DNA of 41,327 bases from Akkermansiaceae bacterium (GTDB lineage: Bacteria; Verrucomicrobiota; Verrucomicrobiia; Verrucomicrobiales; Akkermansiaceae), in the NCBI GenBank assembly GCA_029866215.1, contig JARWZU010000059.1, positions 1 to 41,327 of the forward strand, given 5' to 3'. Below the pieces are notes generated by a model. It worked only from the letters and a program-made list of their open reading frames with translations, ran no database searches and had not been told where the DNA came from. Position numbers and translations under genes: made by a program. Below, in pieces: positions 13,110 through 41,327 of this stretch. Numbering within the stretch: position 1 is the stretch's first letter; every line of letters starts with the position of its first letter.

Positions 13110-15878
13110 TTAAAAGGCAGCCGTGAATTGGTAAGTGCCGGAGCCGAGGGTGAGTTGAGAGCCGTTGATGTCGCTGATGCCGGGGCGGCCAGCGGCGGGT
13201 GCGCCGCCTTCGCGGATTTCACCGGTCACGGGCAGGGTGAGCTCGGCGGTGGTATTCGGCGGAACCGTGATTTCTGCGACGAATTGTTTTCCTACGATTT
13301 TCCACGAACAGGCGAGCTTGCCGTGGCGGGTCTCGGTGGAGGCGGCGGCATGGGTGATCGTTCCGGTGGGCTTCGGGGCGATTTTGACGCGGTCGAAACC
13401 GGGGGCTGCGCGGTCGATGCCTGCGAGTTCGCCAATCATCCACTCGCAGACGGCGCCGAAGGCATAGTGGGAAAACGAGTTCATGGCTGGTTCATGAACG
13501 CCGCTCTCTTTGATGTAGGAATTCCAGCGCTCCCAGATGGTGGTGGCACCATTGTCTACCTCATAGCCCCAGCTCGGGTATTCATGTTGCTGCATGAGGA
13601 CGCCGGCGAGGTCGTGGTGGCCTGTGGCGGTGAGAGCGGGAAGCAACGGGCGGGTGCCAAGGAAACCGGTCGTCATCTTGTTGCCATTCTCCTTCACGAG
13701 GGCGACGAGATGATTGGAGGCGGCGGCGCGCAAGCCCTTGGGGATGAGATCCAAAAACAGGGCCATGGCGTATGCGGTCTGGTTGTGAACCACCAGTTTG
13801 CCGTCAGCTTTCAGATATGTTTTTTGAAAACTGGCATTCACCTTGGCTGCCAGTGCCTTGTATTTCGCGGCATCGGCTGGGTTGCCGATGGCGGTGGCCA
13901 TTTCCGCCATGAGTGCGGCATCGTGCGCGTAGTAAGCGAGGTCAATGAATGGAACTGGCGTCGTCACTTTTCCGACAGAAAGCCAGTCACCGTAGCCGCT
14001 TTCGTCACTCGATCCCTTCAATTCGGGATCGTGGAGGGCGCGCCAGTCCATGAAATCATTCATTTTCCGCCAATGCTCGACGATGACGCGGGTGTCGCCA
14101 TAGACCTGCCAGATCGTCCACGGGCAGATGACGCCCGCGTCCATCCATCCGGCGGAGTGATGCTCGTTAGGGCGGGCCAGCGGGCGCGGTGCGTATGAGG
14201 GGTAGGGGCCGTCGTCCCATGCATCGTCGTTGAGATCACGCAACCACTTCGTGTAGAACGAGGCGATGTCCGCGTTGAAGGTGGCGGCGCGCACGTAGAT
14301 CTGGGCGTCGCCCGTCCAGCCCATGCGCTCGTCGCGTTGCGGGCAGTCGGTTGGCATCTCAAAGAAATTCGCGCGCTGAGTCCAAACCATGTTCTTGTAG
14401 AGTTGATTCAGCATCGGGTCGGAGCATTCGAATGAGCCGTGGTAGGGGACATCCGAGTGGATGACGATGCCCGTGACTGCATCGAGGTCGGGTGTTCCTG
14501 GGAACCCGGTGAGTTCGATGAATTGGAATCCGTGATAGGTAAACTCGGGCGTCCAGATTTCGCCGGCGGGGTCGCCCTTGAGGATGTAAGTGTCGATTGA
14601 GCGAGCGCAGCGGAGGTTCTCGACGCTGAGGCGGCCGTCCTTGTGGAGCATTTCGGCATAACGAATGGTGACCTTATCACCGGCCTTGCCCTTGACCTTC
14701 AGTCGGGCGACCCCGGAAATGTTTTGGCCGAGGTCGAAAATGAAGACTCCGGGTTGGAGCTCCTTCACCGATTTCGCGGCCATTTCCTCGATCGGGCGGA
14801 CTGGCACACCGGGATGCGGCTCGACTTTTGAATCGGTGCCGGTCTTGCAAACGGCGGATTCCCATGCCGAATCGTCGTAGCCGACGGTGGTCCATCCGGT
14901 GAGTTCCTTACGGGCGTCGTAGGTTTCGCCCATCAAGATGTCGCTCTCGGTGATCGGTCCCAGTGAGGTCTTCCACGAGGGATCGCTGATGATCGTCTGG
15001 CGGGTACCATCCGTCATCTCGAGTTCCAACTGGACACGCACGGCAGGAGCTACGCCGTAATAGTAGCGGCCGCTGATTCCGGGGACGCTGCCTTCTTGGT
15101 CGGTCAGCAACCCATAGGCGACATAACCGGCGTACCAACCGTCGGCGAGCGTGGCACCAAGCGCATTTTTCCCCTCACGCACGAGGCGGGTGACATCATA
15201 GGTCTGCGAGTGGATGCGGCGCTGGTAGGCGGACCAGCCTGGGGCGAGGCGCTCGTCAGAGACGCGCTTGCCATTGAGTTCTAACGTGTACACCCCGAGC
15301 GCCGTGGCGTGGATGGTGGCGCGTGCGATGGCGGGGGCCTCGAACTCCTTGCGGAAATATTTCGCGGGGGTCACCGTGAGTTGGCCTTTTTTCGCGTCGC
15401 CGACGAAATTTTGAATGTTCTCTCGGGTGACGAACGACTGCTCGTTCTTGGCACTGATCCAAAGTGCGCTCCAATCCTCCGCAGCGAGCAATCCTACGCT
15501 GAACGTCGCGGGCTCGCTCCAAGTGGACTGGTCGCCGCGGTCGTCCCAGATGCGGACCCGCCAGAGGGCGTGGTTGCGCGAGGTGAGCGGGGTTCCTGCG
15601 TATTCGATTTGGTCGGTGGCGGCGGAGTTGACCTTGCCAGACGTCCAAAGAAGGTTTTTGTCAAAGCCCGTGCCATCTGCGGCGACCTGGATTTCGTAGG
15701 CGGACTGGCGGAGGCCGCGGGCAGCGGGATCGGTGGCGGCCAATTTCCATGAGAAGCGCGGTTTGGTGGTAGCGACTGCGAGCGGCTTGGTGTGATATTC
15801 GCAGCGGAGATCGTGTGCCACGGGCGCGGCCGCAAAAATGGGTGCGACCAAGAAAAGAGCGAGAATTGAGAATTTCAT
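13110..15878 (-). CDS. Secreted alpha-L-rhamnosidase (GH78)
   Basis: 922 residues, the usual length for GH78. A short signal peptide (about 1-18, ending FAAA) precedes an N-terminal Fn3-like domain beginning HDLRCEYHTKPL. Then comes the jelly-roll domain with LNGKRV, LAPGWSAYQ and LADGWYAGY, and the (alpha/alpha)6 catalytic barrel. The GH78 acid signature DCPQRDERMGWTGD is at residues 511-524 and contains the conserved Asp and Glu residues; the second carboxylate is in TIWERWN, followed by the NSFSHYAFGAV motif. It releases terminal alpha-L-rhamnose by inversion. It is first in a minus-strand set with the acetylesterase and the double esterase. The spacing to the next gene and the location opposite the sulfatases indicate a joint role on a rhamnose-containing sulfated glycan. 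Confidence 0.95.
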   Translation of the reverse strand: MKFSILALFLVAPIFAAAPVAHDLRCEYHTKPLAVATTKPRFSWKLAATDPAARGLRQSAYEIQVAADGTGFDKNLLWTSGKVNSAATDQIEYAGTPLTSRNHALWRVRIWDDRGDQSTWSEPATFSVGLLAAEDWSALWISAKNEQSFVTRENIQNFVGDAKKGQLTVTPAKYFRKEFEAPAIARATIHATALGVYTLELNGKRVSDERLAPGWSAYQRRIHSQTYDVTRLVREGKNALGATLADGWYAGYVAYGLLTDQEGSVPGISGRYYYGVAPAVRVQLELEMTDGTRQTIISDPSWKTSLGPITESDILMGETYDARKELTGWTTVGYDDSAWESAVCKTGTDSKVEPHPGVPVRPIEEMAAKSVKELQPGVFIFDLGQNISGVARLKVKGKAGDKVTIRYAEMLHKDGRLSVENLRCARSIDTYILKGDPAGEIWTPEFTYHGFQFIELTGFPGTPDLDAVTGIVIHSDVPYHGSFECSDPMLNQLYKNMVWTQRANFFEMPTDCPQRDERMGWTGDAQIYVRAATFNADIASFYTKWLRDLNDDAWDDGPYPSYAPRPLARPNEHHSAGWMDAGVICPWTIWQVYGDTRVIVEHWRKMNDFMDWRALHDPELKGSSDESGYGDWLSVGKVTTPVPFIDLAYYAHDAALMAEMATAIGNPADAAKYKALAAKVNASFQKTYLKADGKLVVHNQTAYAMALFLDLIPKGLRAAASNHLVALVKENGNKMTTGFLGTRPLLPALTATGHHDLAGVLMQQHEYPSWGYEVDNGATTIWERWNSYIKESGVHEPAMNSFSHYAFGAVCEWMIGELAGIDRAAPGFDRVKIAPKPTGTITHAAASTETRHGKLACSWKIVGKQFVAEITVPPNTTAELTLPVTGEIREGGAPAAGRPGISDINGSQLTLGSGTYQFTAAF

Positions 15879-24427: not shown

Positions 24428-24521
24428 CCCGCAATCATGTTTCGCCACACCTCCCGGATCAAGCGGGAGTTACGGGATTGTTCAGATCGCCTAATCGATC
24501 CAGCGCGCTGGGCGCGGGCGC

Positions 24522-25610
24522 TTAGGCCTTGGCGAGCGCGGCGATGTCCCAGAGCGGTTGGTTGAGCTCCGCATTGATCTCGTTGAACTCGGCGACCTCG
24601 GCTGGGGTGAAGAGCAGTCCACCGGCTTCGTCAGAACGCTTGCGGGCACCGGCTTCGATTTGACCAGGCAGCATCGACGCTTCATTGCCATGGCCGAGGA
24701 TGTCGTCGAGCACGGCCTTCAGGTTTTGGATCTGGTTACGTCCTTGGGCGAAATTGCCACCGGATAGCGCGTCTGGATGGATGACTTGGAAGTAGAAAAC
24801 TGGGGTGTTTTTCTCGCCAGAAATGCTCATTTGGCGGCCGCGGATTGTTGGCAGCGAGCCGCCGATTAGGCCTCCGAAAATCTCATTGAGCAGTGACATG
24901 CCGTAGCCCTTGTGACCGCCAAATGGCAGAAGTGCTGCCACTTCGTTCGGGTCGTTGGTGGGTTGGCCATTGGCATCGACTGCGGCTCCCGGCGGCAGCA
25001 TTTTTCCTTCGCGCTTCAGTGCTTGGACGCGGCCCATCGCCACGGTCGAGGTCGCCCAGTCCATCACGATCGGGAAGCCGTTGGCCTCGGTGCTTGGGAT
25101 GCCCCATGAGTGCGGGTTGGTGCCGAGCGTTGGGAATTTCCCGCCGAATGGCACGACTTCAGCCAAGGCCGAGGTGCAGTTGGTGTACGCGTAGTAACCG
25201 CGTTCCGCAGCCTCCATCACGTAGCCGCCACCCCAGAGGTAGTGGAAAGCATTGTCCACCGCGATTTGGGCGATGCCATATTGGTCCGCAAGCTCGATGG
25301 CGCGATCGATGGCGCGGTAGGCGACCGATTGGCCGAGTTTCTTGTTCGCATTCCAGCGTTCCGAAGCAGGGAAGCGCGACGGCAGGACCTCGATTTCTGC
25401 GCCCGGAGTACAGCCACCAGCGGCGGAACCAAAGAGGTGGTCGAGGTGCAATGCCTTTAGCGCATGGTGAGTGCGAATCCCATGGCGGGCGGCCTCAGCA
25501 GCGAGTTTTGCGCCTTCCGCAGACTCGTCGGCGGTGTAGCCACGGGATTGGTAAGCGAGTGAAACGAGGGCATCGTGGTCTTTGCGCGGAATGACGAGGA
25601 ATTCGGACAT
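24522..25610 (-). CDS. Ldh-family (malate/lactate-type) dehydrogenase
   Basis: 362 residues, typical for the LDH2/malate dehydrogenase oxidoreductase family, which reduces or oxidises 2-oxo/2-hydroxy acids with NAD(P) and is unrelated to classical Rossmann LDH. Landmarks are AARHGIRTHHALKA near residue 45, AVDNAFHYLWGGGYVMEAA, FPTLGTNPHSWGIP, and PFGGHKGYGMSLLNEIFGG. The family also contains ureidoglycolate and 2,3-diketogulonate dehydrogenases, so the substrate is open; 2-keto acids from deoxysugar breakdown would be one fit, by inference only. The ATG at 25610 gives MSEFLVIPRKDHDALV. It lies between the AddB-like gene (74 bases or more) and the kinase gene (192 bases) on the same strand. 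Confidence 0.88.
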   Translation of the reverse strand: MSEFLVIPRKDHDALVSLAYQSRGYTADESAEGAKLAAEAARHGIRTHHALKALHLDHLFGSAAGGCTPGAEIEVLPSRFPASERWNANKKLGQSVAYRAIDRAIELADQYGIAQIAVDNAFHYLWGGGYVMEAAERGYYAYTNCTSALAEVVPFGGKFPTLGTNPHSWGIPSTEANGFPIVMDWATSTVAMGRVQALKREGKMLPPGAAVDANGQPTNDPNEVAALLPFGGHKGYGMSLLNEIFGGLIGGSLPTIRGRQMSISGEKNTPVFYFQVIHPDALSGGNFAQGRNQIQNLKAVLDDILGHGNEASMLPGQIEAGARKRSDEAGGLLFTPAEVAEFNEINAELNQPLWDIAALAKA

Positions 25611-28133: not shown

Positions 28134-30641
28134 TCAACGCAATTCAATGTCTGCCGTTTCGCCAGGCATTAGAACCAGTTCCTTGGTGACGCTTCCATTT
28201 TGAATCACCGTAAGATGGTGCGTCTGGCTGCGTCGCTCTACCACCACGTCGAAGTTGCGATCGAATGCTCGGATTGCGCGCAGTGCCATGCGTGGCCAGC
28301 CATCCGGCAGGCGAGGGGTGCAATTGAAGCGATTCAATCCGGTGGGTTGCAGGCCAAATAATCCTTCTGTGTAGATTCGGCAGTAGAGGCCACTTTCGGA
28401 CGAGAGGTGGCGTTGGTCGCCCTCGGGCCAAGCCTCGACGGGGTAGGGGACGTGGTCGCCTAGGAGTCTGCGGTTGGTGTAGTTGGTGAGGTAGCGCAGT
28501 CCTGTTGCCGTTTCTCCCGCCTGGAGGACACCGCGGAGACCATAGAGGGTCGAGCGGTCCCAGAAGGCAAGGTCTCCGGCTTGGGAAGCCAGTCCATCGG
28601 ACGTCCAGAGGCGTGGCGAGAATAAGGCGGCGATGGTGCCTTCGCGGCGTTCAGTTAGGCCCATGCAAAGAGGTAGACAAATCCAGGAACGCAGCACGTC
28701 GTTGCCCTCGTGATACCGGTAGGTTTTGAAACCTTCGACGTTGGCACCGAAGTAGTTTTCAATCGCCTTCGCCATGGCGTCGGCTTGTTGATCGTAGGTT
28801 TTTGCTTCAGCCTCGAAACCTAACGAACGTCCGAGGATTGCTGCGGAGCGCAATCCTCCGTAATACAACGAGGAGGTGGATAGATTCGCTTTTCCCGTGG
28901 GTAGGCGGCCTTCGAGTTCATCGCTATCAGATGCAATGACGCCTGCGGGAGTCGTCTGGCGGCGGGAGTACTCGTGGCACCATGCGATGGCTGGCCAAAG
29001 TTCATGAGCGATGGCTTTATCGCCGCGTGCGAGGCAGAAGCGTGCACAGCCATAGGCATACATCGCTGCATCGCCACGGTCTCCGTCTGCACCGCCAAGT
29101 CCGATCCCTTCGGAGTAGAGTGAAGAGGGGATCAGCTTGTAATCCGGCTTCATGTGCTTTTGGAAAAGACGATAAGTGTCGAGTGAAGCTTGATTTCCGT
29201 TTGGGTCACCGAGAAAGGGGAAAAAAGGGCCAGAGTATTCTGCGTTATCGTTGCACCATGCCGCTGCGTAGTATGCCAGTCCGCCTGGCGCGAGCATCAT
29301 GCCATTGCGGGTGGCATTGATCGCCTCCGCGACTCGGAGCTTGCAGAAGGCGAAGGCGCGGTCGAGCTCAGGCTCAGGGGTTTCCAGTCGGAGATTCTGT
29401 TGGATTCCGGCAACGTAGGCGCGGCGCGCGCGTTCCTCGGCCTCGATGTCGATTTTTCGAGGTGCTGCATTGGACAAGCGGCCGCTGAACTCAACAGCAA
29501 ACGTGAGCTCTGCGCCCGGTGCGATGATCGACGACGTGGGCGCGGTGCAAGTGACGTCGGTGAGGTTGAGTCCATAGGGGCCTTCGATTTCATGATGCAC
29601 CTTGAGAGGGGCAACGTTCACGGTGACTGGGGCTTTCCCAGTGTTGCGCAGCGTCCATCGATCGATGGTGGTGGATAAGGTCGTGGATGGAAAGGTGCAG
29701 CGGGTGATCGCGAGGTTGTTGCTGGCCTTGCCCTCGATGGTGAGCGTACCATCGAGTAGCACGCGGCTCACGGTGATGGGACCAAGGGCTTGGCCATCAA
29801 CGGTGATTTTGGGCTCAGTTTCCTCGGCGTTGTAGTGGCGGATTACCCCATCGAACATGCCATTTTTTCCCTTGCGGTGTCCGGGCCAGACGACACTGCG
29901 TCTCATCGAGAGGGCGTGATTTGAGTCGACCCTGTAACGCACGACTTGCCCCACATGCAGGCCACCTTGTTCGATGAAATCCGCATGAGGGAGTCGTGGA
30001 TCATTCGGGACATTCCACTCGGTGGTGATACCATTGCCAAGAACCCAACGCGGCGGAGTGGGAGGGGCTGCGATGGTCTTTGGCTTGGTGCCCTCGAAGG
30101 TGAAAACCGCATCGGCCCATGCGGCCTCGTCTTGGTCCGAGCCATCGAAGCCGTCGTTGACCCGCAGAGTGATCTGCTTCACACCTGTGAGGTTGAGGTC
30201 AACGGGATGCGCATTCATGCCACCGCGCATGATCGGGCTGCACCAGAGGACCTTGCCGTCACCTTCGATGACAAATTCGGCACTTGCGGATTTTGGCACT
30301 AACCTTTCATTTCCGGTGATGCCGACCTGGGCGGTGAAGCGAGAGCACCCACCTGCTAGATCGAGATGTAGGACGCTTGGGGAATGGGTCCCGAAGCCAT
30401 GGGCGAAGTGTCGTCCAGCGATGCGGATCGGATGGTCGCTTGCCGAGCGATCGATCCCGGGTTTGCCTTCGTTTTGTTGGACGTTAGTGAGGTCGAGGGA
30501 GGATAGCTGGATCTCCGTGGCGGTGGCTAGCGTGGCGAACCATGGGAAAACTCCAAGTAGTGCGATGACCATCGGCGCGACTCTTGCAGATTTGGGGGAC
30601 GACCCATTAAATGAGAATGTGCTATGGATGGGACGAACCAT
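28134..30641 (-). CDS. Secreted NPCBM-domain glycosidase-like protein
   Basis: 835 residues. A long charged N-region precedes the hydrophobic signal core (VIALLGVFPWFATLATA, about 25-41); a start at 30572 is also possible. Residues of about 42-185 form an NPCBM carbohydrate-binding domain (HFAHGFGTHSPSVLHLDL, VGITGNE, LRVNDGFDGSDQDEAAWADA). A beta-sandwich region follows, then from about 410 a helical barrel of six-hairpin glycosidase type, with LAYYAAAWCNDNAEYSGPF, GDRGDAAMYAYGCARF, DSDELEG and YPVEAWPEGDQRHLSSES. Acidic residues in these blocks are the likely catalytic ones. The closest fold relatives are glycogen-debranching/GH63-GH95-like enzymes. It is alone, apart from the sulfatase locus, but could share its substrate range. 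The family assignment is by fold only. Confidence 0.72.
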   Translation of the reverse strand: MVRPIHSTFSFNGSSPKSARVAPMVIALLGVFPWFATLATATEIQLSSLDLTNVQQNEGKPGIDRSASDHPIRIAGRHFAHGFGTHSPSVLHLDLAGGCSRFTAQVGITGNERLVPKSASAEFVIEGDGKVLWCSPIMRGGMNAHPVDLNLTGVKQITLRVNDGFDGSDQDEAAWADAVFTFEGTKPKTIAAPPTPPRWVLGNGITTEWNVPNDPRLPHADFIEQGGLHVGQVVRYRVDSNHALSMRRSVVWPGHRKGKNGMFDGVIRHYNAEETEPKITVDGQALGPITVSRVLLDGTLTIEGKASNNLAITRCTFPSTTLSTTIDRWTLRNTGKAPVTVNVAPLKVHHEIEGPYGLNLTDVTCTAPTSSIIAPGAELTFAVEFSGRLSNAAPRKIDIEAEERARRAYVAGIQQNLRLETPEPELDRAFAFCKLRVAEAINATRNGMMLAPGGLAYYAAAWCNDNAEYSGPFFPFLGDPNGNQASLDTYRLFQKHMKPDYKLIPSSLYSEGIGLGGADGDRGDAAMYAYGCARFCLARGDKAIAHELWPAIAWCHEYSRRQTTPAGVIASDSDELEGRLPTGKANLSTSSLYYGGLRSAAILGRSLGFEAEAKTYDQQADAMAKAIENYFGANVEGFKTYRYHEGNDVLRSWICLPLCMGLTERREGTIAALFSPRLWTSDGLASQAGDLAFWDRSTLYGLRGVLQAGETATGLRYLTNYTNRRLLGDHVPYPVEAWPEGDQRHLSSESGLYCRIYTEGLFGLQPTGLNRFNCTPRLPDGWPRMALRAIRAFDRNFDVVVERRSQTHHLTVIQNGSVTKELVLMPGETADIELR

Positions 30642-30997: not shown

Positions 30998-31672
30998 ATG
31001 ACAAAATCGCGCCCTCCTCACTTCGAGGTCATCATTGCCAACTTTCAATTTTGGGATACCCTTGATAGGGTTTTAAATCTTGTACAAGTTTACGATGTTT
31101 CCATTCCCAAGGGAAAGCGAGGAAGGAAGCCAGCTGGATCTGCCGATGTCCTGCGCGCAGCGGTTGTTCTGCTGCATTCGGGTCTCGAGGAGTTCTTGAG
31201 AGCGTTAATCAAGGCTGGCTGGCCACACAGCACAGAGAACATCTTGAATCAGGCTTCCTTGGCGGTGGATGATCGAGGGGGGCAACCGGCAAAGCTCTCT
31301 CTCGGTAAATCACGCAAGCACCGAGGGCGGTCAGTTGATGAATTGATCACTGAGTCTGTAAATCAGTATTTGGAGGCGTCGGATTTTAACCATTTGAGGG
31401 AGATTAAGGTGAAACTCACTTTACTGGGGGTCGACCTCAGTTGCGGTGATTCCTACTACGCAGCCATTGCGCAGCTCACTGAAAGACGACACCAGATTGT
31501 CCACAGGGGAGATGTGAATGAGCAACAAGGTAGCGGACATCATCCGACGAGGTCCATCTCAGCCAGTACCGTTCGAACATGGGCCGATGCCGTATGTGGC
31601 TTTGTAAGTGCGGTTGGGAAGAACTATACAAAAACAAGGATGGGTGCCGAAACCCAAAGGGTTGGGAGATAG
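30998..31672 (+). CDS. HEPN-motif protein, possible RNase
   Basis: 224 residues, soluble and without a signal peptide. The C-terminal half carries TERRHQIVHRGD: R164 and H169 form the R-x4-H signature of HEPN domains, followed by the R-G-D seen in the RiboL-PSP/MAE_28990-type HEPN group. An earlier helix has LLHSGLEEFLRALIKAGWP (about 58-75), matching the first long helix of these four-helix folds. HEPN proteins are commonly metal-independent RNases in toxin-antitoxin, CRISPR-associated and abortive phage-defence settings. No antitoxin-like MNT or other partner is next to it, so a defence role is inference. The flanks are gene-poor and the neighbouring regions hold decayed genes, consistent with an acquired island. 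Confidence 0.6.
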   Translation: MTKSRPPHFEVIIANFQFWDTLDRVLNLVQVYDVSIPKGKRGRKPAGSADVLRAAVVLLHSGLEEFLRALIKAGWPHSTENILNQASLAVDDRGGQPAKLSLGKSRKHRGRSVDELITESVNQYLEASDFNHLREIKVKLTLLGVDLSCGDSYYAAIAQLTERRHQIVHRGDVNEQQGSGHHPTRSISASTVRTWADAVCGFVSAVGKNYTKTRMGAETQRVGR

Positions 31673-32261: not shown

Positions 32262-35200
32262 ATGAAAAATCCTAGAATCATAAATCTTCGTGGTTACCAA
32301 TTCCATTTCCTCAATGGATTCGCCCTCATTGCCACCTTGTTGCTGATGATCCTGCTCACCGTGATTGCTGTCGGTCTGCTTTCCCTGTCCAGTATCACAC
32401 TCAGGTCCTCAACTCATGGCACAGCTATGCAGACTGCCCGCGCGAACGCGCGAATGGCGATGATGCTCGCTCTGGGAGAACTTCAAAACACGCTGGGTCC
32501 GGATCAACGGGCTACGGCGCGCTCCGAAATGCTGGCGGAGAAACCCGCTTACCCGAAGATTACCGGCGTTTACAAGTCGGTCCTGCCGGGTTTGCCTACC
32601 GATCCAGCCGCCTATTTCAAGAAATTGAGAACTGATAGCAAAGACCAGGTCACTTGGCTCGTGTCATCTGCAAAACCAGTAACCGATCCGGTCACCCAGA
32701 CGCCAGAGGCTCTCAGTGATGATGGGAACGCGGCGACTGTGGATATAGCTGAAATGCAGACAGCGTATGATCCCACTGGGAAATTGTTTCTCATCAAGGC
32801 GGGCAAAATAGCGACGAAGAGCGATTCTGGGACCACCACAGGTTCCTACGCCTGGTGGGTAGATGACGAAAGCCAAAAGGCGAAAATCAATGTGACCACG
32901 CCGGAAAAATTGGCAACGGGCACCAATTTCGACGAGCACTGGGCTCTGGCTCCAGCCCAACAGTCGAACTTCTTCAAAGTCGATAACAACCCGGCAAGCA
33001 GCACCTACAGTCCAGTCACCATCACGGGTTACGATGCCAAAGACACGACGGCGACCCAAAAACTGATCAGCATGAGCCAGGCGGACATTCCCTACAGGAT
33101 CGGGGCCGAAAAGGATTGGTTCCGGAAGAATCAGACGGACTTCACCACTTGGTCACAAGGATTGCCGATTGACGTTTCCCAAGGGCGGCTGAAGCAGGAT
33201 CTGAGCGCCTATCTGGAAACAGGCGCCGGGCCGGCCGATACAGATCCGGTGATTCGTAAGAGTGGTGACCCGGGCTTCACTGGGCCCATTTTTTCAGAGC
33301 TGGATTACTCAGCGAATGACATGCCGCGTTTCGGCCTGATCAAAAGCTGGAATAAGACCGGGGCCACGGTGACCGATTTTGATACGGGAGGAACGGAGTC
33401 CAAGGTGCATACTAACACAGAGAACGGGATTCATCCGGTCATCCTCCGGGCTGGCATCTACTATGCCCCCTATTTTGATCCCATGGTAGGAACTGAAGAT
33501 GTGGATGTTGGTGTGGTGGGAAACAAGAAACCTGCCCATTTCATCACATGGAAGTTGGCAGCTTTTCCGCGGGTGACCATTTGGAATCCAACGAGCGTGC
33601 CTATCACGGATCCCTGGCTCCTCTATCAAGTAGGGGTCACCAACCATGTCATGCTCTATCAAAAGAATGGTTCTGATAGCAGTGGTGCTGCTTCCGATGA
33701 CAATAACAACCTTTATTGGCGGACTTTTGTGAAAGCAGTTAATGGTTCGGACAACAATAAGTTCGCTTTCAACAACATGATGAATGCAAACCAGTGGAGT
33801 TACTCGGTTCCGTCGGGCTCAGGCACAGGCAAGAGCACCATGCCTCTTCACACTTACGCACTCAGGCTGGACACTCCATTGTTGCCCGGACAAACGCGGA
33901 CTTTTTATCCCGGGACCAGCGGCGAGCTTTTGAAGACCTATGGGAAAACGGGTTCACCACGCTTTGTGGATATCAACAACTCCAATGTGGCAGCCGGGAA
34001 CGTGATGACCTCAACGCCTGCACCGAACAACTACTTCCGGGTCGCCCAGATCGCAGGCACGGAGTTTACCAGTAAGATCTATGCAAAGAGTTCCACCGGC
34101 GACATTCCAATGACGACGCCGCCGGCTGTTCCGCAGTTTCTCGAAACCTATCTCTATATCCGCCAGGCAGAGAGCGGGCCTGCTTTCGAAGGCACATGGA
34201 CACATGGCTGTGATTACCGCTTGCTTAAGCCCGGGAGTTCGGACCCGCCTGCTTTGCTACAGGAAGTCTTTTCCGCGGAGCACGCCGATACTTCCGGTGG
34301 TGCTAGTGGTGCAACGAAGGGCCTTCCCACCTACTCGATCAGCAACGCCTCACAATATGACGACCCTGACGACGGAGTGTCGGCAAAGGGCTACACACTC
34401 GTGAAATTCTATTCCGATCCGAACCGCGAACTGACGTCACGGCGTGGACATCAAATTTACATCAGTTATGCGTTGGAAGATCCCAAAAACGACTTCAACA
34501 GTATTTATAAGGACAGTAGCAAGCAGCTCTCCGTCTTTGCAAACTACAACCCGCGCTCCCGCTATGTTTTCCCAGGTACCTACGAGGAGAATAAGACCGG
34601 GGTTGGAGGTCCGACATTCGATTCGAACGTCCAAGGGGTTCGGCAGGAGCTCTATTCGGAGGGACGTCCGGAGGCAGCCTGGCTCACGGATTGGTCATTG
34701 GACAAGGAAAGTGGCTATGGCACGGACAAGGACTTCGGTAGCCCGGGACTTTATGATCTAAACCTGTCATCGAACGGATTAGTCTATCCGCTTTTTGATT
34801 TTCCACGTGCCAGGGACGGCGTGCTTTCGTTGGGAGAACTTCAGGGAGTGAATTTCGCGACGTATCCTTGGCAACCGGGAAATGCTTTTGGTAACAGCAG
34901 GGCTGATCCCCGCGTTCCTTCCAACCAGCTGGCCGTCGAGATCCCCCAAACCGAGGATCATCCTTACATCAAGTCACTCTCGTTAGGAAATAATCGCTAT
35001 GTAGACTTATCATGGCTGTTGAACTTCTCGATCTGGGATCGCTTTTTTGTGTCGACCATTCCTTATGGCGATAGTTCCTTCCAATCGAAAGCTGGCAATG
35101 TGCTGCGGAATGGGCGCCACAAGCTGACCGGGCGCGAAGGGCAGGACTCCGGCACAGCGCTGGTGGATTCGGCGACTAACGGCTACACCAAGGCAGCGGG

Positions 35201-36044
35201 CAACATCGTGGTGGACGGAGCATTCAACGTGAACACCACTTCGGTGGCAGCTTGGAAACAGTTCCTCAGTGGGAATTTCAATCTCAAGGTTCCAGTGAAA
35301 AACACGATTGGAAGCAGTGAAAGTTCTCCCTCTGACCAGACGGTTTTCCCCCGTTTGCTGTATCCCTATCGAGGTGAGGCTGCCAAAGGCTCCATGGATG
35401 TGGGATCCAGTGATTCCGCCACGAAGGGCGCGTTTTCCGCAAACCGTTCTCTAAATGACGAAGAATTGCAGAAACTGGCGGAAAAAATTGTCGAAGAAGT
35501 GCGCTTGCGCGGCCCGTTTCTTTCCTTGGCGGATTTTGTCAATCGGAAGCTCGTCGACGCGGCGGACACCAGCATGGGCAAATGGGCTGGGCTTTCGGGA
35601 ACTTTGCAAACCGCCATTGACCGGGTGACGGTGGAGGACAAGATGATCAATAGTCATCTGGAGGCCGACAGTGACCTGATGTATAAGAAGGATGAAGTTC
35701 CCGCCTATCTCCAACAGTCGAACACAGTCGGCCGGCCGGATAACATTCCTCAAAGCCGCCTTGCCGGTGCTCCGGGTTCCCTGACGCAAGCGGACATCCT
35801 ACGCACCGTCGGTCCGATGCTCACGACTCGCGGCGACACATTCCGGATTCGTGCTTACGGCGAGTCCCGAAATCGGCAGACCAACAAAAGTGAGGCCGAA
35901 GCGTGGTGCGAAGTCGTGGTTCAACGCGTTGCCACGCCGGTAGACGGTGCCGACGATTTGGTCGCGCCGAATGAGACGCTGTATCGTTTCGGGCGGAAAT
36001 TTCAAATCGTTTCATTTCATTGGCTGAAAAAAGCCGAACTCTAA
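32262..36044 (+). CDS. Verru_Chthon cassette protein A-like, very large prepilin-like protein
   Basis: 1260 residues. After a short N-terminus comes a prepilin-like segment: G19 then FALIATLLLMILLTV and GLLSLSSITLRSS, without the Glu5 of classical pilins. Residues 55-75 (ARANARMAMMLALGELQ) are the helical continuation seen in PilX/GspK-like minor pilins. The long remainder is Ser/Thr/Asn/Gly-rich and probably extracellular or envelope-exposed; it includes SYAWWVDDESQKAKIN, a phrase typical of the family, and EEVRLRGPFLSLADFVN near the C-terminus. It closely fits the Verru_Chthon cassette protein A family, whose role is unknown but which is found beside other prepilin-type proteins in Verrucomicrobia. 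The next gene starts 4 bases after its stop, so the two are co-transcribed. Confidence 0.82.
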   Translation: MKNPRIINLRGYQFHFLNGFALIATLLLMILLTVIAVGLLSLSSITLRSSTHGTAMQTARANARMAMMLALGELQNTLGPDQRATARSEMLAEKPAYPKITGVYKSVLPGLPTDPAAYFKKLRTDSKDQVTWLVSSAKPVTDPVTQTPEALSDDGNAATVDIAEMQTAYDPTGKLFLIKAGKIATKSDSGTTTGSYAWWVDDESQKAKINVTTPEKLATGTNFDEHWALAPAQQSNFFKVDNNPASSTYSPVTITGYDAKDTTATQKLISMSQADIPYRIGAEKDWFRKNQTDFTTWSQGLPIDVSQGRLKQDLSAYLETGAGPADTDPVIRKSGDPGFTGPIFSELDYSANDMPRFGLIKSWNKTGATVTDFDTGGTESKVHTNTENGIHPVILRAGIYYAPYFDPMVGTEDVDVGVVGNKKPAHFITWKLAAFPRVTIWNPTSVPITDPWLLYQVGVTNHVMLYQKNGSDSSGAASDDNNNLYWRTFVKAVNGSDNNKFAFNNMMNANQWSYSVPSGSGTGKSTMPLHTYALRLDTPLLPGQTRTFYPGTSGELLKTYGKTGSPRFVDINNSNVAAGNVMTSTPAPNNYFRVAQIAGTEFTSKIYAKSSTGDIPMTTPPAVPQFLETYLYIRQAESGPAFEGTWTHGCDYRLLKPGSSDPPALLQEVFSAEHADTSGGASGATKGLPTYSISNASQYDDPDDGVSAKGYTLVKFYSDPNRELTSRRGHQIYISYALEDPKNDFNSIYKDSSKQLSVFANYNPRSRYVFPGTYEENKTGVGGPTFDSNVQGVRQELYSEGRPEAAWLTDWSLDKESGYGTDKDFGSPGLYDLNLSSNGLVYPLFDFPRARDGVLSLGELQGVNFATYPWQPGNAFGNSRADPRVPSNQLAVEIPQTEDHPYIKSLSLGNNRYVDLSWLLNFSIWDRFFVSTIPYGDSSFQSKAGNVLRNGRHKLTGREGQDSGTALVDSATNGYTKAAGNIVVDGAFNVNTTSVAAWKQFLSGNFNLKVPVKNTIGSSESSPSDQTVFPRLLYPYRGEAAKGSMDVGSSDSATKGAFSANRSLNDEELQKLAEKIVEEVRLRGPFLSLADFVNRKLVDAADTSMGKWAGLSGTLQTAIDRVTVEDKMINSHLEADSDLMYKKDEVPAYLQQSNTVGRPDNIPQSRLAGAPGSLTQADILRTVGPMLTTRGDTFRIRAYGESRNRQTNKSEAEAWCEVVVQRVATPVDGADDLVAPNETLYRFGRKFQIVSFHWLKKAEL

Positions 36045-36048
36045 AATC

Positions 36049-36861
36049 ATGAAAAGCCTGAACACTTTGTCGCTAGCTGCACTCATCAGCAGATCCGCTC
36101 TGCTGGTCTCGTTGCTCTCGGGACTTTCAATTGCAGCCGTCGCTCAAGGAGATGGTGGGCCCAGTTTTTCCCAAGAGGAATTGAAGGCGCTTGAGGCACT
36201 GCCAGCCATACCGCGGCGGCAGGCGCGTAGTCCCGGTGAGTTTGCTTTCGCCGTTTTTTCCTTTGGTAAATCCTCCGAAGAATATTTCTATCTCCGCAAT
36301 AAACTTCCGGAAATGATCATCTTCAACACAGGAGTGATTCGCCGCTTTCAGTATGCGGATACACCAGATGGTGTCCTGGTGTTTTATAAAAAAACCACCA
36401 ATTCAGCTGGCGAACAAAAGCTGCGCGCCGTAGGCCGAATGATTCTTCCGTCCGGTTCGCGTGACGGTATCGTTCTCTTCATGCCGGATGTGCCGGATGA
36501 GGGTGAGAAGGAAGCGCGCACCATGCCATACGTTGATCTAGCGAGTGGCGCGTTTCGTCCAAGTGATATCCGGTTGGTCAATATGACGACCCAGCCGCTG
36601 ATGGTGCTATTGGATGAAAAGCCGGTGAATGTGGCCCCCATGGCGGACGTTGTAAGAAAGCACAATCCGAGTTCAAAGATCTTTCCCGTAAAAGTCGGTG
36701 TGCAAACAAGTGGGAAACTACAGATGCTCTATTCGAATGTATTTCAGTTTGAGCCTCAAAACCGCGTGCTTTTTCTCATCGTTCCCGATTGGAACAAAAC
36801 CAACTCAGGGGCGCCTGTGCGGTGTATGATCTACAAGGATAACGGCGTGATCTCCGGATGA
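36049..36861 (+). CDS. Secreted protein of unknown function, cassette A partner
   Basis: 270 residues. A signal peptide of about 33 residues (core ALISRSALLVSLLSGLSIAAV, cleavage near VAQ) precedes a Glu-rich linker (QEELKALEALP). The rest is a mixed alpha/beta domain with GEFAFAVFSFGKSSEEYFYLRN, VLVFYKKTTN, DIRLVNMT and NRVLFLIVPDW, suggesting a beta-sandwich with repeated short strands. No catalytic motif is recognised. It starts 4 bases after the cassette A-like gene, so the two proteins probably act together at the cell envelope. The family is not recognised, and the function remains open. Confidence 0.75.
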   Translation: MKSLNTLSLAALISRSALLVSLLSGLSIAAVAQGDGGPSFSQEELKALEALPAIPRRQARSPGEFAFAVFSFGKSSEEYFYLRNKLPEMIIFNTGVIRRFQYADTPDGVLVFYKKTTNSAGEQKLRAVGRMILPSGSRDGIVLFMPDVPDEGEKEARTMPYVDLASGAFRPSDIRLVNMTTQPLMVLLDEKPVNVAPMADVVRKHNPSSKIFPVKVGVQTSGKLQMLYSNVFQFEPQNRVLFLIVPDWNKTNSGAPVRCMIYKDNGVISG

Positions 36862-38177: not shown

Positions 38178-38846
38178 ATGCCCTTGTTTCATCCAGTATT
38201 TCAAGACTTGATCAAGCCCCAGTGGGTTGCGGTGCTTCAGGAGCTCAAGCTTTCGGGAGGATTACCCGCTAGCGAGTTGTCGAGGCGGTTGGAGGTCAGC
38301 TACATGGCGGTGAAGCAGCAGTGCGAGGAGCTGAAGAAGATCGGGTACTTGGAGCGCTCAAGGGTTCCCCGGACGGTCGTGGGCCGACCTGAGATATTCT
38401 ACAATCTCAGCGATAAGGCTGATTGGCTTTTTCCATCGGCTGGGGTGGGATTTAGCATCGAATTGTTAGATGCCACGAAGGCACTGTTTGGTGATAGCAC
38501 TCCCGATAAGCTTTTGTTCCAATATTTTCAGAAGCTCGAAGCGAAATGGCAGCCAGTGCTCGCGAAGTCGAAATCTTTGGTCGAGCGCGCGACGAAGCTG
38601 GCCTCCTTGAGGGAGAAAGAGGGAGGGTTCGTCAGGTGCGGCTATGATCCTGAGACAGGGTTCCGCATTGAGGAGTTTCACAATCCGCTACAGCGGATCT
38701 TTGAGCGTTATCCTCGGGCGGTCGCCATGGAATTGCGGATGATCGAGCAGTTGTTAGCGACCAAGGTGACTCGCCGGGAGGTGTCCGATGCGAGGTCTGG
38801 CCAGCCCAAGGTAATTTTTGATGTGCCAACTCTTGGAAATCCTTAG
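38178..38846 (+). CDS. Winged-helix transcription regulator (SufR/ArsR-like)
   Basis: 222 residues. The DNA-binding domain is residues 12-78: helix WVAVLQELKLSGGLPASELSRRL, the turn with VSYMAVKQQCEELKKIGYL, and the wing SRVPRTVVGRPEIFYNLSDKA. The C-terminal part (about 100-215) has FHNPLQRIFERYPRAVAMELR, which resembles the ligand-binding tail of SufR-like regulators of iron-sulfur genes. The cysteines that hold the cluster in true SufR (C-x12-C-x13-C-x14-C type) are not found, so it probably senses something else or acts through another ligand. No operator could be assigned. Divergent placement next to gmk does not by itself link the two. Confidence 0.75.
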   Translation: MPLFHPVFQDLIKPQWVAVLQELKLSGGLPASELSRRLEVSYMAVKQQCEELKKIGYLERSRVPRTVVGRPEIFYNLSDKADWLFPSAGVGFSIELLDATKALFGDSTPDKLLFQYFQKLEAKWQPVLAKSKSLVERATKLASLREKEGGFVRCGYDPETGFRIEEFHNPLQRIFERYPRAVAMELRMIEQLLATKVTRREVSDARSGQPKVIFDVPTLGNP

Positions 38847-38906: not shown

Positions 38907-41327
38907 ATGAAATTCCCCTATCTCATCGTTGCCGCAGCGTTTCTGTCGTGGGCGGCCGTTGCATGTAAAAAGTCTGATCCTGCCGTCGCGCAGCGGATCG
39001 CTGAGCTTGAGAAAAAAAACCGCGAGGCAAGTGAGCGTCAGGGCGAACTTGAGCGGCAGATCGAGGATCAAAAGTTGGCGGTCGAGCGTGACGCAATCGA
39101 GCGAGAGCGCATGCAACTGGAGACCGATCGCGAAGCGCTTGAGCGGCGCACCCATGAGGTCGGGGCCGCCGAGAATGAGGCCATCCGCAATCGCGAGCTT
39201 ACGTTGGCCCATCGCGAAAAACAGCTGGAGCAGCAAAAATCGACGCTCGAGGCGAAGGGCGATCGGCTCGAGCAGCAAGACCAGCAACTGAGCGAGCGCG
39301 AACGTGAGGTTGCAGGCAGGCAAGCATTGTCGGTCAAGCCGACCGAACCGCGCGGCGCAGTGGGGGATTATGGGATGTTTTACGATTCGCTCTCGTCGTA
39401 TGGCTCATGGTTTGAGACGCCAGACTATGGGTATGTTTGGCAACCTGTTGCGGTTCGGGATGCGATGTGGCGGCCCTACTACCGTGGACGTTGGGTATGC
39501 AGTGACCGTGGCTGGACCTGGTTGTCGGAAGAGCCATTCGGTTGGGCAACCTATCACTACGGTCGCTGGGCGTTGCTGCGTGGTCGCGGATGGGTCTGGG
39601 TGCCCGGGACTGAGTGGGCACCTTGTTGGGTTTCATGGCGCGAAAATGATCGCTACATCGGATGGGCACCGCTTCCTCCTGAGTCGCTGGCTTATCGTGG
39701 GCGCTCATGGGATGCGGCGGTCGATGTGCAACTGGGGATCGGGGCAGGGTGGTATCATTTCATGGAGGTCCGACATTTCGCGGACCCTGTCTATCGCTAC
39801 CGCTTGCCCGCTACGCAGAGTATCTCATTCTATCAGCAGACCACGAACATCACTTTCATTCATACTGAAAATCGGCAGGTCATTTGTGGAGGGCCGGGCT
39901 ACAAGAGGCTTTCAGATCGGATTGGCAAGCCGCTGCCATTTTATCGGTTAGAACTGGACCAACGAGCACGGCAAAGTCGCGACACCTTGGGCATGCGTTC
40001 AAGGGTCGAGGGAAATCGGCTGGTCGTGAATGCGCCTAACATCGACGCTGAATGGAATGAAGGGTTGAAGCCGAAGCGCATCAAAGGACGGATGGATCAA
40101 GTTGCAGTGGAGCGCGATAGCGGCTTGAAGAAGGAGGTTGGTGAGAATTTTCGACGCAGTCGCGAGGAAGGACGCGAGAAGGCGAAGCAAAGCATCGCCG
40201 CACTCGGAGGAAGCGAGAATTTTGAGCGAGTTCGCAATGAGAAATTGAAGGAAAATCGCCAAAGGACCGATGCCTTGTATAAGCAAACGCAAGGTCATGA
40301 GGTAGATAGCAATCGCGAGGCTCCTCCGGCGGAAGAGCAAAGGATTGAGAAGGATGCGGCAATAGAAAATCCGGTTGTGAGGAAGGCGCAGGATCAACAA
40401 GTAGCAGAGGACAAACGTTCCCGGTCTTCGCAGGATCTGAGGGGCCTCGGTAAGCCGCAGCGGCCAGCGCGCGAGTCAACCAAATCCAATGCGACTGTGC
40501 CGCAGCGTTCGGAGATACCCCAAGATCAGGTTCATCAGGAAGTCGCTGAAGGTGCGCAGAATGATCAAGTGCGAGATCGAGCTCCAGCAGAACAGCGTCG
40601 CGATGTTGAGAAGCAGGCAGCGGAGCAACAAGAGGCCCAGGCGCGTCAGAGCCAAGCGGAGCAGAAGCGTGTGGTGGATCAGGCTCGTCAAGAAGCACAG
40701 GAAGCCGCTCGAAATGCGCAGCAAGAGCAAGTGCGAGATCAAGCTCTAGCAGAAAAGCGTCGTGCGGTGGAGAAGCGGACTGCGGAGCAACAAGAAGCCC
40801 AAGCGCGTCAGAGCCAAGCGGAGCGTAAGCGTGTGGAGGATCAGGCTCATCAAGAAGCACAGGAAGCCGCTCGAAAGGCGCAGCAAGAGCAAGTGCGAGA
40901 TCAAGCTCTAGCAGAACAGCGTCGCGATGTTGAGAAGCAGGCAGCGGAGCAACAAGAGGCCCAGGCGCGTCAGAGCCAAGCGGAGCAGAAGCTTGTGGAG
41001 GATCAGGCTCGTCAAGAAGCACAGGAAGCCGCTCGAAATGCGCAACAAGAGCAAGTGCGAGATCAAGCTCTAGCAGAACAGCGTCGTGCGGTGGAGAAGC
41101 AGACTGCGGAGCAACAAGATGCCCAAGTACGTCAGAGCCAGTTGGAGCGACAAGCTGAGCAGGCCCAAGCCGCCCGAGAAGAAGCGATGCAGCAGCAGCG
41201 TGAGGAGGCTCAACAGCGACAAGCCGAGCAAGCGCGTGCCGCCCGAGAAGAAGCGATGCAGCAGCAGCGTGAGGAGGCCCAACAGCGACAAGCTGAGCAA
41301 GCCCAAGCCGCACGAGAAGAAGCGATG
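38907..41327 (+). CDS. Repeat-rich lipoprotein with DUF6600-like domain (3' end outside window)
   Basis: At least 807 codons, open from the ATG at 38907 to the window edge with no stop, so it is easily missed. The N-terminus MKFPYLIVAAAFLSWAAVAC has a lipobox-like AVAC with C20 as the lipidation site. Residues 25-140 form a Glu/Arg/Gln-rich coiled coil. Residues 153-258 are a Trp/Tyr-rich DUF6600-like domain (YGSWFETPDYGYVWQP, GRWVCSDRGWTWLSEEPFGW, WVPGTEWAPCWVSWR, YIGWAPLPPE). After a linker, residues of about 554 onward are long Gln/Glu/Ala/Arg coiled-coil repeats: a 54-residue unit, then a 23-residue unit. The protein is probably an envelope-anchored, extended coiled coil. Shadow ORFs on both strands, one of 410 codons on the minus strand (40081-41313), are artefacts of the repeat composition. 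Confidence 0.85.
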   Translation, partial: MKFPYLIVAAAFLSWAAVACKKSDPAVAQRIAELEKKNREASERQGELERQIEDQKLAVERDAIERERMQLETDREALERRTHEVGAAENEAIRNRELTLAHREKQLEQQKSTLEAKGDRLEQQDQQLSEREREVAGRQALSVKPTEPRGAVGDYGMFYDSLSSYGSWFETPDYGYVWQPVAVRDAMWRPYYRGRWVCSDRGWTWLSEEPFGWATYHYGRWALLRGRGWVWVPGTEWAPCWVSWRENDRYIGWAPLPPESLAYRGRSWDAAVDVQLGIGAGWYHFMEVRHFADPVYRYRLPATQSISFYQQTTNITFIHTENRQVICGGPGYKRLSDRIGKPLPFYRLELDQRARQSRDTLGMRSRVEGNRLVVNAPNIDAEWNEGLKPKRIKGRMDQVAVERDSGLKKEVGENFRRSREEGREKAKQSIAALGGSENFERVRNEKLKENRQRTDALYKQTQGHEVDSNREAPPAEEQRIEKDAAIENPVVRKAQDQQVAEDKRSRSSQDLRGLGKPQRPARESTKSNATVPQRSEIPQDQVHQEVAEGAQNDQVRDRAPAEQRRDVEKQAAEQQEAQARQSQAEQKRVVDQARQEAQEAARNAQQEQVRDQALAEKRRAVEKRTAEQQEAQARQSQAERKRVEDQAHQEAQEAARKAQQEQVRDQALAEQRRDVEKQAAEQQEAQARQSQAEQKLVEDQARQEAQEAARNAQQEQVRDQALAEQRRAVEKQTAEQQDAQVRQSQLERQAEQAQAAREEAMQQQREEAQQRQAEQARAAREEAMQQQREEAQQRQAEQAQAAREEAM
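40566..41143 (+). repeat. 162-bp tandem repeat, about 3.5 copies, in frame
   Basis: Unit starts are at 40566, 40728, 40890 and 41052, each exactly 162 bases (54 codons) apart and marked by CAAGTGCGAGATC. Copies 1 and 3 share CGTCGCGATGTTGAG and GAGGCCCAGGCG, while copies 2 and 4 share CGTCGTGCGGTGGAG and GCCCAA, an A-B-A-B order. The fourth copy degrades after about 90 bases. Identity is high at the DNA level, indicating recent expansion. Confidence 0.9.
41163..41327 (+). repeat. 69-bp tandem repeat, about 2.4 copies, reaching window edge
   Basis: Units start at 41163, 41232 and 41301, exactly 69 bases (23 codons) apart, each encoding AREEAMQQQREEAQQRQAEQ with minor changes. The last copy is cut by the window end, so the total number is unknown. 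The block directly follows the decayed fourth copy of the 162-bp repeat. Confidence 0.9.

Follow-up and report, generated by a model that had tools for sequence, protein, structure and literature searches.

The locus

The window, meaning the whole stretch of DNA that was analysed, is the complete contig C69 and has 41327 bases. At its end lies an open reading frame for a predicted lipoprotein with a DUF6600 domain (Pfam family PF20245). The frame is open because contig C69 stops within a tandem repeat. The coordinates of the gene, its parts and its closest neighbour are collected in Table 1.

Table 1 Features of the DUF6600 locus, in window coordinates unless another contig is named.
Feature	Position	Strand	Details
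Winged-helix MarR/SufR-like gene	38178..38846	+	Ends 60 bp upstream of the DUF6600 gene
DUF6600 lipoprotein gene, 5' part	38907..41327	+	Starts with ATG; 807 codons, stop-free; 3' end absent at contig end
Signal peptide and lipobox (A-V-A-C)	38907..38966	+	Residues 1-20; predicted acylated Cys20
N-terminal helix, predicted	38979..39323	+	Residues 25-139, about 115 residues; AlphaFold2
DUF6600 (PF20245), Trp/Tyr/Gly-rich	39384..39683	+	Residues 160-259; E 6.5e-36
Conserved region after DUF6600	39684..40226	+	Residues 260-440; conservation profile
162-bp (54-residue) tandem repeats, Q/A/E/R-rich	40536..41140	+	3.7 copies
69-bp (23-residue) tandem repeats	41146..41327	+	2.6 copies, reaching the contig end; repeat also on C79
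Antisense frame, 410 codons, shadow	40081..41313	-	Shuffles, substitution bias, stops in relatives
3' continuation	C79 (genome G000; locus L006, 6360-6797)	-	69-bp repeat in frame, 145 codons, then stop

The winged-helix protein matches both of its models below their cut-offs: SufR at 50.3 bits over residues 19-194 (cut-off 178.8), and MarR_2 at 24.4 bits (cut-off 27). Beyond it, on the opposite strand, is a guanylate kinase gene.

Among further genes in the window, a plus-strand gene at 32262-36044 encodes 1260 residues, with N-terminal matches to Verru_Chthon cassette protein A and to the GspK minor pseudopilin that are far below cut-off. The next gene, at 36049-36861 on the same strand, has no Pfam or NCBIfam family at E 0.01. 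There is also a HEPN_RiboL-PSP domain protein at 30998-31672 on the plus strand (36.8 bits, cut-off 28.4). On the minus strand are an 835-residue protein with an NPCBM domain at 28134-30641 (123.5 bits) and an alpha-L-rhamnosidase at 13110-15878.

Coding frame and antisense frame

The frame had originally been described as 807 codons without a stop, and this is correct. When the bases were shuffled, none of 500 shuffles left it fully open. Substitutions also behave as in a coding sequence: over codons 1-448, the plus frame differs from the two nearest relatives at codon positions 1, 2 and 3 in 22, 15 and 83 places for one, and in 34, 31 and 155 for the other. A profile search finds a single DUF6600 gene in this genome. 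A real gene for a DUF6600-family lipoprotein almost certainly begins here, and the frame is its 5' part.

The frame had also been described as running off the window. It is indeed open-ended, but the contig itself ends at 41327, so the cut is one made by assembly. A related claim, that automated stop-based calling misses this gene, holds for listings of closed open reading frames only. Ordinary gene callers would be expected to report genes that are partial at an edge.

Part of this stretch is also open on the minus strand, for 410 codons, which invites the reading that the true gene lies there or in another frame. Chance can provide this length in a sequence of such composition, as one of its longer runs. 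With synonymous codons shuffled, the longest antisense run has a median length of 282 codons; the observed 414 is attained in 19 of 500 shuffles. Three of the 49 relatives' frames (L038, L043 and L051) also have an antisense run of over 400 open codons in this register. Against this, every one of the 49 has stops in the antisense register, 6 to 43 of them across the gene, and it is the plus frame that has the third-position bias, the Pfam domain and the conserved lipobox. A minus-strand or out-of-frame gene is rejected on the codon-position bias, the shuffles and these stops, and its probability is negligible. The antisense and out-of-frame pieces are shadows, as had been proposed.

Lipobox, helix and conserved domain

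The predicted protein starts with a short signal peptide that ends in a lipobox cysteine, the mark by which a bacterial lipoprotein is recognized. The original prediction named this cysteine as C20, and an alignment of 30 sequences has it in at least 95% of them. The residue at lipobox position -3 is Ala, where Leu is usual.

Next comes the predicted helix. Its AlphaFold2 pLDDT is 82-84 over residues 31-70 and drops to about 37 where the helix ends. The spacing from the cysteine to DUF6600 is 128-138 residues in 26 rows from the genus, with the lipobox placed by rule. In the L036 row the lipobox was placed on an earlier cysteine, Cys15, and its spacing of 137 should read 132.

What had been called a DUF6600-like domain is a full-length match to PF20245, and one well above the curated gathering cut-off of 27: 127.9 bits in the genome search and 122.9 bits with hmmscan. 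This is the most conserved part of the protein, with an identity of 0.71-0.87 per 20 residues over residues 161-260. Every one of the 31 sequences in alignment A2 is a PF20245 match as well. WXXGXW was matched by a single domain out of 31, at E 0.18, and this was given no weight.

Conservation continues to around residue 440, and a variable linker separates this region from the repeats. Residues 260-440 match no further Pfam family at E 0.01, and the 807-codon protein matches no NCBIfam model at the same threshold.

The missing 3' end

The repeat DNA with which C69 ends has matches on a single other contig of the 88 in this genome. This is C79, and the matches are at its very end, on the minus strand (bases 24470-24568 and 24605-24786 of 24796). 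The tail read from C79 ends in ...QQDGQQGPGN, followed by a stop. The original prediction could be checked by extending the sequence until a stop was found, and this is where the stop is reached. Compared by eye, the bases closing C69 resemble those opening the C79 tail and are not identical to them. This means that repeat copies may be missing between the two.

On C79 the tail is followed by a gene for an MFS transporter, oriented convergently. Genomes G251 and G254, the two nearest relatives, have the orthologue of this transporter (89% and 88% identity) at the start of a contig, with the same repeat tail and stop directly preceding it as on C79. Their DUF6600 genes are on other contigs and stay open to the contig end, at 733 and 704 codons (records JAPJNB010000074.1 and CAILVZ010000135.1). 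The window genome, G251 and G254 are all split alike, so three genomes have been broken at the same place.

Between the C79 and G251 tails, 10 synonymous and 2 nonsynonymous codons differ out of 44; first, second and third codon positions account for 1, 1 and 10 changes.

It could be that C79 holds the end of another repeat-tailed gene that has nothing to do with C69. The gap has no spanning read, and in the remaining loci that were read no MFS gene was found beside DUF6600. In genome G252 the two are on one contig, with the MFS gene about 6.8 kb away and on the upstream side. This neighbourhood has therefore been seen only in the three nearest genomes. An unrelated C79 would however have to be reconciled with a genome that has just one DUF6600 gene, with repeat DNA confined to two contigs and to their ends, and with both nearest relatives showing the same two-contig split next to the same MFS neighbour. 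That makes it very improbable. It is close to certain that the gene was split by assembly within its own tandem repeat, and that the 145 codons on C79 are its 3' end.

The repeat tail and the coiled coil

The long repeat region that had been noted consists of 162-bp and 69-bp tandem repeats, the copies of which match one another at 88-93% as DNA. Over residues 541-807 the tail is 27% Q, 22% A, 17% E and 13% R, and E, R and K together make up about 33%.

Coiled coils were looked for by comparing the hydrophobic pattern at heptad positions a and d with shuffles, in windows of 28 residues. In the N-terminal helix, 1 of 8 windows is above the shuffles (residues 25-52, p 0.04). The hydrophobic periodicity of this helix peaks at 3.62, with a shuffle p of 0.084. 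In residues 441-804, none of 25 windows beats the shuffles; the best of them, at 497-524 in the linker, has a p of 0.07, and the best within the repeats on C69 has one of 0.15. The tail on C79 has 0 of 9 such windows, with a lowest p of 0.89.

Other periods are present. The power at 3.5 residues in three repeat stretches is 0.7, 4.5 and 1.2. In the 54-residue repeats, a period of 4.16 exceeds all 500 shuffles, and the 23-residue repeats on C79 have a period of 3.83 with a power of 50.7. These periods are close to 54/13 and 23/6 and are taken as harmonics of the repeat units.

The coiled coil of the original prediction is thus weakly borne out near the N-terminus and unsupported in the repeats, and the description of it as very long finds no support in a tail whose windows show no heptads on either contig. 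The tail rather appears to be a polar extender, helical or disordered, than a heptad coiled coil.

Single alpha-helix (SAH, or ER/K) segments are a useful comparison. Like them, the tail is long, polar, helix-favouring and heptad-free, and its repeats have 18 acidic-to-basic pairs (E-to-R) at i,i+3, a z of 3.6 against shuffles. Other charge spacings are weaker: at i,i+4, R-to-E pairs have a z of 2.3 and E-to-R pairs one of -0.5. For the tail on C79, charge spacings have z values from -0.6 to 2.2. Classical SAHs are also far more charged than this tail.

Occurrence in relatives

With the window's own genome excluded, 58 relatives were searched and 42 of them have DUF6600. The genus accounts for 27 (of 36 searched) and the rest of the order for 15 (of 22). 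A phylum-wide search found it in 16 of 193 genomes, this time with the own genome counted, and 15 of these are above cut-off.

The comparison of architectures is based on 49 frames. Of 46 DUF6600 places outside the own genome, 40 were read. Genomes G003, G010, G024, G025, G027 and G035 were excluded, and the G025 copy is nevertheless included as L038. The 30 genus loci are made up of 20 from searched genomes, L084, and nine named records. L039, L040, L042, L043 and L044 are assumed, on the basis of similarity, to be genus members. As L041 and L049 are the same contig, the 49 frames are 48 distinct ones. One further oddity is L067 (G042:C77), a DUF6600 match with one TGA in frame, which could reflect a damaged gene or a fault in the assembly.

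In the genus, 26 of 30 loci pass the strict lipobox rule, and the other four (L037, L040, L052 and L054) have the cysteine by eye. Runs rich in Q/E/R/A/K and at least 100 residues long are present in 27 of the 30. With the lipobox, helix spacing and polar tail in nearly all genus copies read, this architecture is normal for the genus, and the original view that it is unusual has to be dropped. The gene is an ordinary member of a family already found in close relatives.

PF20245 is defined by its domain alone. In this subfamily the domain is joined by a lipobox, a helix of near-fixed length and a polar repeat tail. The order of lipobox, helix, DUF6600, conserved region and Q/E/R/A-rich tail is the same in related genes such as L041 (JAIXQH010000067.1) and L045, which is from the single-contig genome G004. 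Nine named loci have 54-91% identity (best segment) to residues 1-448 or nearly so.

What does differ by species is the sequence and length of the tail repeats. In complete genus genes, the C-terminal part after the conserved region measures 285-645 residues. Outside the genus, 8 of the 19 other loci from the order pass the strict lipobox rule and 11 have a Q/E/R/A/K-rich run of this length. Instead of such a run, L069, L071 and L080 have Pro/Lys-rich tails. By eye, the signal peptides of these three and of L078 and L079 lack a lipobox cysteine. The anchor is therefore not universal in the family.

Frames are cut by the end of a contig on the 3' side in 12 of the 49 relatives' frames and on the 5' side in none. 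All 12 are true contig ends. This imbalance is partly expected, as the 3' part is the longer one. DUF6600 repeats tend to break draft assemblies, in these 12 relatives as well as in the window. Since the gene breaks at its repeats, draft genomes can mislead by holding truncated copies.

The winged-helix neighbour

A winged-helix gene is upstream of DUF6600 in 25 of 30 genus loci and in 0 of 19 other loci from the order. One of the five genus loci that lack it, L064, has only about 210 bases upstream. In G234, from another genus of the same family, the winged-helix gene and the domain share a strand and are about 0.6 kb apart.

Nine genus genomes have no DUF6600. This absence is taken from the genome profile search; a protein search, run without a separate positive control, was empty as well. 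Of these nine, 5 keep the winged-helix gene, G007 among them with a partial copy. An obligate partnership is rejected on this count: the winged-helix gene persists without DUF6600, and is therefore a common neighbour, not an obligate one.

The sister genus g18, which may be gut Akkermansia, has DUF6600 in 0 of 17 listed genomes. The winged-helix neighbour is also absent in all 6 of the g18 genomes tested for it (E 1e-10). With both genes missing, the pair was either lost there or never gained.

Proposed role

A sequence search of the PDB has no relative better than E 0.2. The AlphaFold2 models, made with ten sequences each, are poor, with a mean pLDDT of 47.8 for A1 (428 aa) and 48.8 for A4 (117 aa). 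Both have short strands at Gly-x-Trp motifs, which are not relied on. A search of one literature library found no paper naming DUF6600, and none on 'YXWGXW repeat-containing protein'.

From the sequence the following can be proposed. The protein would be processed, acylated at the predicted Cys20 and anchored in a membrane. This is probably the outer membrane, given that there is no Asp at +2; the +2 Asp sorting rule comes from E. coli. The helix of about 115 residues, with its near-fixed length and perhaps paired near its start, would set the distance to DUF6600. This Trp/Tyr-rich domain would then bind a partner in the envelope, most plausibly a glycan, and the Q/A/E/R tail would serve as a polar extender, helical or disordered and of variable length.

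An envelope spacer lipoprotein with an aromatic, perhaps glycan-binding, domain is a tentative suggestion, and one with a less than even chance of being right. One observation that speaks for it is the near-constant spacing from cysteine to domain, as against the wide range in the C-terminal part.

That same range also suits a surface adhesin, in which a repeat tail exposed on the outer face would bind neighbours or polymers and changes in repeat number would tune its reach. The repeats are similar DNA copies, of a type able to change in number, and the lack of the domain in the listed g18 genomes would suit a habitat-linked role. On the other side, the tail is very polar, and Pfam and NCBIfam searches find no adhesin domain. 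An adhesin is considered unlikely, more so than the spacer.

A bolder version of the spacer would have the near-fixed helical ruler and the freely varying tail form a spacing device for the envelope of this genus, with slipped-strand length change and control by the winged-helix gene. This is speculative and quite improbable.

For the best explanation overall, which combines the identity of the gene, the split over two contigs and a role in the envelope, the probability is put at roughly 0.6. With it, a domain of unknown function gains a setting in one genus: a predicted lipoprotein with a near-fixed helix, a variable repeat tail and frequently a winged-helix neighbour.

DUF6600 has no match in phage records and viral contigs. 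Matches are present in 9 plasmid records, the best at 85 bits, with identities of 29-44%. On a Legionella adelaidensis plasmid, the annotated DUF6600 gene adjoins genes of the alpha-amylase family, a weak hint of a link to carbohydrates.
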